A DNA stretch of 5,230 bases from Peptococcaceae bacterium (lineage in GTDB: Bacteria > Bacillota > Peptococcia > Peptococcales > Peptococcaceae), in assembly GCA_017622155.1 (NCBI GenBank), contig JAGARS010000169.1, positions 1 through 5,230 of the forward strand, given 5' to 3'. How positions within the stretch are numbered: the stretch's first letter is position 1; each line of letters begins with the position of its first letter. Below, piece after piece: positions 1 to 2,601 of the stretch. The translations under genes were made by a program, and so were the position numbers. The notes below the pieces were generated by a model, which did not search any database, was not told the DNA's origin, and was given only the letters and a program-made list of their open reading frames with translations.

Positions 1-1438
1 ATTCGTTAATGCAATCTAACAGAATCACTTTCAGCTGCTGTGGATCACAGTTGCCTTTCAGCTCTTTCATGCATTTGCCGAACAGCGCCATTAAGGCTTT
101 TTCTTTCCCGCCTTTGAAGTCGCTTACGGATTTTGGATCGGATGCGATTACGTTTCTTACAACGCTGATAATCATATCGTCATTCTGTTCACCAATAAGC
201 ATATCGTTGGCTTCTGCATAAGCTTCCGGCTCAATGGTGCGATCATCAAACATCGCGCTGAGGATTTTTTTGCTGTTGGCACGGCTGATTTTGCCATCCA
301 TTGTTAAAGCAATCAGTTTACCCAGTGCTTTGTTGTCCAGATTCAGCATTTCATATGTCATCTGTTTTGCATTCAGAATACGCATAACATCAGAAGTAAT
401 CCAGTTTACTACTTCTTTTGGACTGCCGCATACTTCGCTTGCTTCTTCGAAGCATTCGCACAGCATAATGCTTTCGCTGATACGTTCTGCATCGTATTCG
501 GTTAAGCCCAGTGCAATATATTTTTCCCGTTTCACTTCAGGGAATTCCGGCACAGATTTTTTGATGCTTTCATACCATTCATCGTCAATTACCACAGGCA
601 TTACATTTGGATCCGGGAAATAACGATAATCGCCGGCTGTTTCTTTGGTTCTCATAGCATAGCTTTTGCCTTTGGCATCATCCCAGCGACGAGTTTCCTG
701 CACCAGTACTTCGGTACCGTTTTCAATCGCATCAATATGACGTGCTGTTTCGAATTCGATAGCGCGTTTGATTGCTTCGATGGAGTTCATATTTTTCATT
801 TCGGTACGTACGCCCAGCTCGTTGCTGCCTGCAGGTCTTACAGACAGGTTTACATCGCAGCGCATGGTGCCGTGAGCCATTTCGCACTCAGCCACTTTGG
901 CATAACGCAATAATGTTCTCAGACGCACCAGATATGCTTCTACTTCTTCTGCACTGGATAAATCCGGCTGGCTTACGATTTCGATTAATGGCACACTGGT
1001 ACGGTTGAAGTCTACATGGGTAGTGCCTTCGCTGATATCATGCACCAGTTTCCCTGCGTCTTCTTCCATGTGAATCTGTTTGATACGTACGCTTTTTTTG
1101 CCTTCGGAAGTTTCAATATCAACACGACCGTTTACCGCTACAGGTGCAAACCACTGTGTGGTCTGATATGCGCCAGGCAGGTCAGGATAGTAATAGCTTT
1201 TTTTATCGAATGTGGTAACACGGTTGATGTCACAGTTCAGCATCATCCCCGCTTTCATACCGAAGTCTACTACACGGCGGTTTACTACCGGCAGCATACC
1301 AGGCATCCCGCAGCATGCAGGGCATACATGAGAGTTTGGATCAGCACCGAAGGAATGTGCCGAACAGGAGCAGAATATTTTAGAATCGGTTGCAAGTTCC
1401 ACATGAACTTCCAAACCAATGACGGTTTCGTATTTCAT
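1..1438 (-). CDS. gatB: Asp/Glu-tRNA amidotransferase subunit B, 3' end cut by window edge
   Basis: GatB phosphorylates the side-chain carboxylate of Glu-tRNA(Gln) or Asp-tRNA(Asn) with ATP and transfers ammonia to it in the cytoplasm. The frame is open for 479 codons from ATG at 1438 to the left edge. GatB proteins are about 475-480 aa, so almost all is present; the next codon begins with T, compatible with a stop just outside. Visible motifs: EVHVEL (10-15); a zinc-type tetracysteine, C23, C25, C39 and C42; HMEEDAGK (123-130); VDFNR (142-146); MRCDVNLSVRP (192-202); QETRRWD (247-253); DYRYFPDPN (270-278); and a C-terminal YqeY-like tRNA-binding domain ending around the GNCDPQQLK segment. 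Compared with the consensus as I remember it, Gln157 and Ser161 replace Glu and Arg of the EPD(M/I)RS motif, and Gly89 replaces the Lys of PKxYQ. It is the last gene of gatCAB, 17 nt after gatA. Family assignment is certain; full activity is not. Confidence 0.97.
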   Translation of the reverse strand, partial: MKYETVIGLEVHVELATDSKIFCSCSAHSFGADPNSHVCPACCGMPGMLPVVNRRVVDFGMKAGMMLNCDINRVTTFDKKSYYYPDLPGAYQTTQWFAPVAVNGRVDIETSEGKKSVRIKQIHMEEDAGKLVHDISEGTTHVDFNRTSVPLIEIVSQPDLSSAEEVEAYLVRLRTLLRYAKVAECEMAHGTMRCDVNLSVRPAGSNELGVRTEMKNMNSIEAIKRAIEFETARHIDAIENGTEVLVQETRRWDDAKGKSYAMRTKETAGDYRYFPDPNVMPVVIDDEWYESIKKSVPEFPEVKREKYIALGLTEYDAERISESIMLCECFEEASEVCGSPKEVVNWITSDVMRILNAKQMTYEMLNLDNKALGKLIALTMDGKISRANSKKILSAMFDDRTIEPEAYAEANDMLIGEQNDDMIISVVRNVIASDPKSVSDFKGGKEKALMALFGKCMKELKGNCDPQQLKVILLDCINE

Positions 1439-1449
1439 CTTAGTTGTTT

Positions 1450-1457
1450 CCCCCTTT
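1450..1457 (-). promoter_or_regulatory. Ribosome binding site of gatB
   Basis: AAAGGGGG on the minus strand, overlapping the gatA stop codon and lying 11 nt before the gatB ATG at 1438. It fixes that start, which also matches the usual GatB N-terminus (MKYETVIGLEVHVEL). The overlap with the stop suggests translational coupling to gatA. Confidence 0.75.
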
Positions 1458-2601
1458 ACACCAGTTCTGCCAGGTCAAGAAGCACATCTTCGGAGAATGC
1501 ATTCCCCACCAGCTGTACTCCGCCTGCCACTACTACAGGCAGACCTGTAATAGATGCAGGAGCTGTATAGAAATTCTCTTTGTAAGGCAGATATTTGTCT
1601 GCTTCAACCATAGCCTTGCTGTATGCTGTTACGCTTGCAGCAGGCATCAAGAGTGCATCACAATCTGCCAGAAGTGCTTTCATCGCTTCACTGATGACTC
1701 TTCTTACACGCAATGCTTTGTCATATACTTTCTGATAATTTTCGGTAGAAAGTGTTTCGGAACCGAACAGAATTGCAGATTTCAGTAATTCACCAAATGC
1801 TTCTGTACGGGAATTGGTATACAGTTCATCAATATTGGTATAAGTTTTGGTACGATAACCGTATTTTACACCATCATAACGAGACACATTGTTGCACAGC
1901 TCTGCGGACATCAGAATATTCCATGCAGCACCTGCATAAGCGATAGTTTCAGCATCTACAGTCACTACTTCCACACCGTTTTTCGCAAGATTTTCACTGA
2001 CAGCAGCAATCTGCGCCTGTACTTCTTCGCTTGTACCTTTCAGCATAGAAGACAGCACAGCCACTTTATTTTTCTTTGTCACAGCTGCTTTGCCTGCGTC
2101 CACCATACTTTCCGGCAAAGAAGTACCGTCTTTTGCATCATGGCCTGCCATAGCAGCAAATACTTCGCGGCAGTCAGCAGCATTTGCTGCAACTACGCTT
2201 ACAGTTTCACCGGAGCATGCCACCGGAATGGTACCATAGCGAGACACCATACCATAGGTTGGTTTCAATGCTACCAGATTGTTCTGCGCAGCACCTCTTC
2301 TTGGCGCACCGTTTACATCCAGTACCACTGCGGCTTCTGCTTCACCGCTTTTTACCTGAACAGCTGCAGGATACTGCAAAGTATCCTTTTCATAATCTGC
2401 ACCAAAATAGCTTGTTTCGCCCAACAGGTCAACACCAAATTCGCCTACTTTTGCTTTTCCGGTAATTGTATAGCCTGCTGCGTTCAGACGTGTCAGCACT
2501 TCTGCTTCAAACAGACTGTTGTAGCCTTCCAGCATTTTGGAGCCGGCAGTCGTCGGTGTACCAACAGTCAGGAACATATCATCGATTACAATCTTATTCA
2601 T
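1456..2601 (-). CDS. gatA: GatA-like amidase-fold subunit, short and lacking the catalytic residues
   Basis: GatA normally hydrolyses glutamine and channels ammonia to GatB. This 381-aa protein aligns with GatA (usually ~485 aa) from the segment that carries the catalytic Lys onward. Retained motifs: TTAGSKMLEGY (17-27), GETSYF (61-66), ALKPTYG (111-117), SRYG (120-123), AGHD (152-155), SRYDGVKYGYR (240-250), TGLP (352-355). Lost by hand alignment to S. aureus GatA: catalytic Lys79 is Asp7; nucleophile Ser178 is Ala99 (GGSIRQPAA reads NGAPRRGAA); glutamine-binding Arg358 is Ala276 and Asp425 is Asn343. The glycine-rich GGSSGGS loop reads VKSGEAE, so only one serine (Ser85), perhaps the cis-Ser, survives. 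About 70 N-terminal residues, ~9 residues before Ala99 and the C-terminal tail are missing. The ATG at 2601 has a strong ribosome binding site directly behind gatC, so no lost N-terminus is hidden upstream. It is probably a scaffold without glutaminase activity. GatA origin is sure; present role is unknown. Confidence 0.93.
   Translation of the reverse strand: MNKIVIDDMFLTVGTPTTAGSKMLEGYNSLFEAEVLTRLNAAGYTITGKAKVGEFGVDLLGETSYFGADYEKDTLQYPAAVQVKSGEAEAAVVLDVNGAPRRGAAQNNLVALKPTYGMVSRYGTIPVACSGETVSVVAANAADCREVFAAMAGHDAKDGTSLPESMVDAGKAAVTKKNKVAVLSSMLKGTSEEVQAQIAAVSENLAKNGVEVVTVDAETIAYAGAAWNILMSAELCNNVSRYDGVKYGYRTKTYTNIDELYTNSRTEAFGELLKSAILFGSETLSTENYQKVYDKALRVRRVISEAMKALLADCDALLMPAASVTAYSKAMVEADKYLPYKENFYTAPASITGLPVVVAGGVQLVGNAFSEDVLLDLAELV

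Follow-up and report, generated by a model that had tools for sequence, protein, structure and literature searches.

A short GatA-like protein without a glutaminase site lies between gatC and gatB in the DNA analyzed here and, wherever the contig permits, in 51 related loci. With a probability of roughly 0.62, GatC, this protein and GatB make up an amidotransferase for Asp-tRNA(Asn) that is independent of glutamine, uses free ammonia and gives Asn-tRNA(Asn). Throughout, gatA* denotes the short GatA-like gene or protein lacking the glutaminase site, and GatB* denotes its GatB partner.

The window, meaning the whole stretch of 5,230 nucleotides, corresponds to bases 1-5230 of contig C140 in a genome of 1.31 Mb (248 contigs, 80.5% complete). 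On its minus strand, ligA, gatC, gatA* and gatB follow one another (Table 1). The three gat genes are spaced by 15 and 17 bases and each is preceded by a Shine-Dalgarno sequence, which for gatA* is AAGGAGGG, ahead of its ATG. The GatC subunit is present in the operon, with TIGR00135 over its cut-off, and gatA* is the only GatA-like gene found in this 80.5% complete genome. The initial annotation described the gatCAB operon as intact. A complete operon is indeed seen in relatives (L004-L006), whereas the gatB of the window itself runs past the window end.

TABLE 1 Features of the window; family counts refer to 49 complete GatA* sequences and canonical counts to 37 GatA rows
Feature	Position	Strand	Details
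ligA	5099-3015	minus	
gatC, 93 aa	2617..2898	minus	PF02686 43.9 bits; TIGR00135 56.6 bits (cut-off 47.1); Shine-Dalgarno upstream
gatA*, 381 aa, short GatA-like subunit without glutaminase site	1456..2601	minus	
gatB, 479 codons, stop codon outside the window	2..1438	minus	PF02934 and PF02637; three NCBIfam GatB models over cut-off
Asp7 codon, at the position of catalytic Lys79 (S. aureus numbering)	2581..2583	minus	Asp in 47/49 family members
Pro78/Ala79 junction, cis-Ser154 loop GGSSGG deleted	2365..2370	minus	Loop in 0/49 family, 37/37 canonical
Ala99 codon, at the position of the nucleophile Ser178	2305..2307	minus	Column S25 A15 T4 Y4 E1 of 49
Ala276 codon, at the position of glutamine-holding Arg358	1774..1776	minus	Arg in 0/49 family members
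Codon of Asn343, place of glutamine-holding Asp425	1573..1575	minus	N40 S9 of 49
Codon of Cys129, new conserved family residue	2215..2217	minus	Cys 48/49; canonical Ser 35/37
Codons of Trp227-Asn228, new invariant pair replacing Tyr-Tyr	1918..1923	minus	49/49 each; canonical Tyr-Tyr 37/37
Codon of Cys236, new conserved family residue	1894..1896	minus	Cys 48/49

The open reading frame had been annotated as GatA-like, and alignment to S. aureus GatA (2df4) bears this out. The same alignment reproduces each active-site assignment of the initial annotation: Asp7 falls on Lys79, Ala99 on the nucleophile Ser178, Ala276 and Asn343 on the glutamine-holding Arg358 and Asp425, and the SLDQ segment reads SGET; the codon coordinates stated there are also correct. 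Two losses are absent from the initial annotation. The cis-Ser loop GGSSGG (S. aureus residues 152-157) is deleted, and about 70 N-terminal residues are missing, the alignment beginning at S. aureus residue 78. The fold matches that of amidase signature enzymes, the catalytic Lys and Ser pair is absent, and the TIGR00132 gatA model scores 248 bits, under its cut-off of 481. The earlier statement that this subunit cannot split glutamine by the known mechanism is thus supported by K79D, deletion of the S154 loop, S178A, R358A and D425N.

To place gatA* among its relatives, one genome per species was scanned; 381 of 413 candidate stretches were confirmed and the best 80 of the 381 were kept. Among these 80, 51 loci (L003-L053), mostly from animal-gut metagenome-assembled genomes, carry a short GatA with 45-87% identity, and the other 29 carry canonical GatA with 32-35% identity. 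Carriers of GatA* include gut bacteria of the clostridial kind and the cultured Fusibacillus kribbianus, which has gatCA*B. In the 51 loci, gatC precedes and gatB follows gatA* wherever the contig permits. Columns were counted in a family set of 49 complete sequences, consisting of the window and 48 of the 51 loci (the cut L017, L047 and L053 were dropped). The canonical comparison set was drawn up with 43 GatA rows, six of them empty, leaving 37, of which eight were chosen for the GGSSGG motif and 29 were not.

The initial annotation had proposed checking whether the substitutions are fixed in relatives. Across the family, Lys, Arg358 and Asp425 are replaced, but the nucleophile column still holds Ser in 25 of the 49 sequences. 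At the Lys column, the two sequences without Asp show one Glu and one gap; the cis-Ser column reads Leu in 43, Ile in five and a gap in one. Ala99, Ala276 and Asn343 are found in 120/120 of the closest homologues (best 120 of 4202). A homologue, P0102, is named "hypothetical protein" by NCBI. Other residues have become fixed: R102, W227, N228, N237 and E342 are present in 49/49 sequences and C129, C236 and N97 in 48/49, with Glu at the E342 column also in 5/37 canonical rows.

The GatA* family is under purifying selection. Between the window and four congeners, dN/dS (NG86) equals 0.09-0.12 for gatA* and 0.03-0.05 for gatB, and with three congeners it equals 0.07-0.15 for gatC. A frameshift, pseudogene or assembly error was considered and rejected, given the 51 loci, the lengths of 120 listed homologues (373-393 aa) and a dN/dS of about 0.1. 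Because there are 51 related loci, a fixed change at the Lys column, a loop lost in 49/49 sequences and a low dN/dS, GatA* is neither a chance finding nor a broken gene. In a GatA tree built by a quick method from 80 rows (36 from the family; L222-L225 left out), GatA* forms one side of a branch, 36 versus 44 rows, with an SH-aLRT of 100. The forks that place the genus of the window inside the family have 83-92% support, unstarred and below the starred 99.

The transamidase partner is retained. The window GatB carries the domains (PF02934, PF02637), ATP/Mg residues and C-terminal domain of a GatCAB-type GatB. It scores 508 bits to gatB and 117 bits to gatE_arch (cut-off 319.55), which does not identify it as a GatE-type transamidase. 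At S. aureus E10, H12, E124, E125, E150, D192 and E210, which we take to be active-site (kinase/transamidase) positions, it has the same residues. A set of 31 canonical GatB sequences gives 102 invariant columns; 76 of them stay the same in at least 95% of 50 GatB*, and nine otherwise invariant columns are altered in at least 49/50 GatB*. R120Q and F82Y occur at such columns in 50/50 GatB* (window 2-1438 and 49 relatives). These changes are perhaps an adaptation to the new GatA. In the GatB tree, GatB* occupies one side of a branch (30 versus 59), with long-branch warnings that include L048.

In most relatives, the composition of the operon points to tRNA(Asn). In 35 of the 51 loci, an AspRS gene (AspRS2) lies directly ahead of gatC. 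Taking the AspRS gene to end where its tblastn match ends, the gap between them is 19-64 bases in 32 loci and 192 and 255 bases in two; in L048 the genes are fused. This fusion places AspRS2 and GatC in one polypeptide beside gatA* (L048:3841-5946), as is also seen in L222. Most genomes with AspRS2 hold a second, different AspRS elsewhere. His31 and Gly82 of AspRS help to set tRNA specificity and form the signature of nondiscriminating enzymes. Position 31 is His in 33/33 full-length AspRS2, as in the P. aeruginosa Asp/Asn enzyme, and Leu in the AspRS of E. coli and T. thermophilus and Lys in 6wom. The other AspRS, outside the genus of the window, read Leu (21), Lys (4) or Met (1) among 26. 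Position 82 of AspRS2 is Glu in 23, Asp in nine and Gly in one of 33, versus Gly in P. aeruginosa.

A T-box scan covered all 51 loci and the window. Upstream room exists in 47 loci, and in 34 of these a T-box over the Rfam gathering score precedes the cluster, namely in 31/33 loci that begin with AspRS and 3/14 that begin with gatC. The specifier is AAC, an Asn codon, in 34/34, read at a position within Stem I that we assume to be the specifier and that fits the Rfam alignment. For 26 of the 34, AAC was picked up by a regular expression; the specifiers of the other eight, six that it missed and two that it misread (L032, L043), were read by eye. The 34 loci lie among L007-L052, an example being L009:3526-3748. 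The leaders of L023 and L048 stay below the gathering score, with AAC present in both by eye. Distances for L017 and L022 were left out, since in both the T-box ends downstream of the AspRS start that was chosen. L040 has two T-boxes away from the cluster, and L044 and L047 have one such T-box each.

The U1-A72 pair of tRNA-Asn is required by GatCAB (PMC4206432, PMC9976931). It is present in 14/15 tRNA-Asn genes from 13 genomes, the 15th being misframed by one base; the 15 genes come from 16 entries, of which one was a repeat. In two loci, identical tRNA-Asn genes flank the operon (L021:510-585 and 7199-7274; L045:309-384 and 6929-7004), and in L041 a tRNA-Asn gene lies 1.6 kb downstream of it.

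We then considered what else these genomes carry for Asn- and Gln-tRNA. Canonical GatA is over the cut-off in 14/50 genomes with gatA* and not in the other 36/50, where GatB was found once, fragments in G001 and G011 aside. AsnRS is over the cut-off in 5/51 genomes and below it or not found in 45/50 genomes with gatA*, and GlnRS is over the cut-off in 31/51. Neither canonical GatA nor AsnRS exceeds its cut-off in 34/50 genomes with gatA*, 23 with GlnRS and 11 without; the other 16/50 also hold canonical GatA or AsnRS. The 11 genomes without GlnRS, AsnRS and canonical GatA over the cut-offs are G008, G018, G019, G020, G029, G036, G040, G043, G044, G047 and G048. Here, GatCA*B may serve both Asn and Gln tRNAs, or the genomes may be incomplete. 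AsnB is over the cut-off in 24/51 genomes and, within the genus of the window, only in G003.

A second sample comprised 396 genomes of the order of G007, requested at at least 95% completeness. GatA* was found in ten of them besides the center genome. No other GatA was found in 9/10 (for G384, four of six candidates were scored), AsnRS was not found in 9/10, and 8/10 were without both; GlnRS was found in eight of the ten. The idea that canonical GatA sits elsewhere in every genome was therefore rejected, as none was found in 36/50 genomes nor in 9/10 of the sample requested at at least 95% completeness.

Individual genomes add some detail. The sub-cut-off AsnRS-like match of G034 was rejected as a missed AsnRS, since it is an archaeal-type AspRS (aspartate--tRNA(Asn) ligase; L124:1492-2799), carried besides AspRS2. 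G050 (L052) combines AsnRS, GlnRS and the gatA* operon; the AspRS2 of the operon is the only AspRS found there, and a second, sub-cut-off AsnRS-like match occurs beside its true AsnRS.

The genus of the window differs in its surroundings. In a class sample of 31 genomes requested at at least 90% completeness plus the window genome, GatA* is restricted to this genus (4/4) among 32 genomes. Since the window GatA* sits among Oscillospirales-type sequences in the GatA tree, a horizontal gain is suggested, with an Oscillospirales-type donor as the likely source of the operon. No AspRS2 or T-box was found at the operon in this genus, and no riboswitch at the operon of the window. Canonical GatA is also present in three other members (G002-G004). 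A canonical gatCAB follows gatCA*B directly, downstream of ligA, at L005:7764-10973 and L006:8737-11949; in G002 it is on another contig, and in L003 none was found within the remaining 1.9 kb. AsnRS occurs in 4/4 relatives (G001-G004; split across two contigs in G004) and was not found in the 80.5% complete window genome, and GlnRS occurs in 3/4 relatives and in the window genome. A single AspRS is present, with H31 and G82 in G000-G003, and the tRNA-Asn genes of the three relatives that were read carry U1-A72. G002 and G003 hold canonical GatA, AsnRS and GlnRS together; therefore, nothing forces an Asn-tRNA role there. Bacteria with AsnRS, GlnRS and GatCAB may make Asn on tRNA (PMC4206432). 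Because a canonical GatCAB, AsnRS and an AspRS with the nondiscriminating signature coexist with it, GatCA*B is predicted to serve this genus as an accessory way to Asn, fed by ammonium.

Judging from the gene content, Asn-tRNA(Asn) is very probably the product of the complex in most relatives: AspRS2 and the AAC T-box accompany it, and canonical GatA and AsnRS were not found over the cut-offs in most genomes. Where neither was found, GatCA*B is the only visible route to Asn-tRNA. Free ammonia is the most likely donor, because GatA* lacks what the known mechanism of glutamine hydrolysis requires, and we infer its use in vivo. In the proposed scheme, AspRS would charge tRNA(Asn) with Asp, and GatB would activate the Asp side chain with ATP. 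Ammonium would enter where glutamine was once hydrolyzed, perhaps held by the Asp that took the catalytic Lys position, and ammonia would travel the old tunnel to GatB. Within the genus of the window, the resident AspRS (H31, G82) would be the likely nondiscriminating partner. There is precedent for ammonia use in related settings. NH4Cl is reported to serve GatFAB as a donor, and truncating GatF lowers the glutaminase activity but raises NH4Cl-dependent amidation (PMC4027206). Single-domain NAD synthetases use ammonia (PMC3376133).

Three other readings were weighed against ammonia-dependent amidation. GatA* may have been rebuilt, with Asp, Arg, Trp-Asn and two Cys forming a new amidase or binding site that frees ammonia from glutamine or another amide. 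The near invariance of D7 (47/49), R102, C129, W227, N228, C236, N237 and E342, each unlike the commonest canonical residue, indicates that the pocket is not simply decaying, and a new substrate could be conceived. However, both glutamine-holding residues are replaced and the cis-Ser loop is missing in all 49 sequences, and we consider a rebuilt site unlikely. Ammonia might instead be fed by another protein, the best candidate being a clustered asparaginase-type, GatD-like protein, acting as GatD does for GatE in archaea. Such a PF00710 gene adjoins the cluster in 9/51 loci, directly after gatB* in four and before AspRS2 in five, and lies about 1.9 kb after gatB* in G171, making ten linked loci in all (L029:2379-3467, L021, L045, L015, L012, L016, L019, L028, L037 and L254). 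Type I asparaginase and GatD are the proteins that its product resembles most, and the Thr and Thr-Asp motifs are retained. The column that we take to be the catalytic Lys of asparaginases nevertheless holds Gln in 9/9 of these proteins and 119/120 homologues. Moreover, the gene was not found in the other 42/51 loci, nor in 7/9 stretches of 13.8-20 kb around the operon from the sample requested at at least 95% completeness (G089 left out). The protein may provide ammonia, act as a sensor or have some other role, and a dedicated supplier of this kind seems distinctly improbable.

The remaining reading concerns only the genus of the window, where GatCA*B might have drifted to a regulatory or scaffold role for canonical GatCAB or AspRS, without tRNA amidation. 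The canonical gatCAB directly following in two of four relatives (L005, L006) and the AsnRS in all four are in line with this. Yet GatB* is the most conserved part of the complex in this genus, as its low dN/dS (0.03-0.05) attests, and keeps its active-site residues, and both the H31/G82 AspRS (G000-G003) and U1-A72 tRNA-Asn (three relatives) are in place. We therefore regard a drifted role as very improbable.

If ammonia-dependent amidation by GatCA*B is correct, it would represent a new way to decode asparagine, from free ammonia, and on the tRNA side a parallel to the pair AsnA and AsnB or to the NAD synthetases that depend on ammonia. Translation of Asn codons in the hindgut would then be tied directly to ammonium. 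A broader picture, in which a lineage of gut Clostridia decodes Asn with a glutamine-free amidotransferase and GatA has become an NH4+ intake gate through its Asp and the old tunnel, under an Asn T-box switch, is tentative and stands at somewhat less than even odds. GatA* also offers a natural test of GatA roles beyond glutaminase activity, for example in the tunnel, in gating or in assembly. Genome reconstructions that simply score "GatCAB present" may then assign the wrong nitrogen donor.

To our knowledge, the characterized GatCABs and GatDEs are glutamine-dependent. The initial annotation knew of no catalytically dead GatA inside gatCAB, and our literature search, which covered titles and abstract openings with subscription journals mostly outside it, met no description of a GatA without its active site inside gatCAB either. 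GatCA*B shares with canonical GatCAB the gatC-gatA-gatB order, GatC and GatB assigned by curated models, the GatA fold, the GatB active-site residues, an AspRS partner and tRNA-Asn with U1-A72. It differs in a GatA* that is about 100 residues shorter, forms its own branch with a new set of invariant residues, and is without the catalytic Lys, the cis-Ser loop and the glutamine-holding Arg and Asp. Clostridium acetobutylicum similarly has an extra AspRS with an additional GatCAB (PMC4206432); the section on it makes no mention of a GatA that lacks its active site, whereas here 36/50 genomes showed only the glutaminase-less copy. Other GatCABs have been tested by rescue of the E. coli Asn auxotroph JF448 (PMC4206432). 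Archaeal GatDE is echoed by the asparaginase-type gene beside a GatB-family gene in the ten linked loci. In contrast to that system, there is no GatE here, GatC and GatA* are kept, and the asparaginase-like protein, in which Gln replaces the catalytic Lys, is unlinked in most loci. As with NAD synthetase and AsnA, glutamine and ammonia forms coexist, and the ammonia-dependent NAD synthetases are described as having no glutaminase domain (PMC3376133). In GatCA*B, however, the glutaminase subunit persists as a protein that has lost its site, and ammonia would go to an aminoacyl-tRNA.
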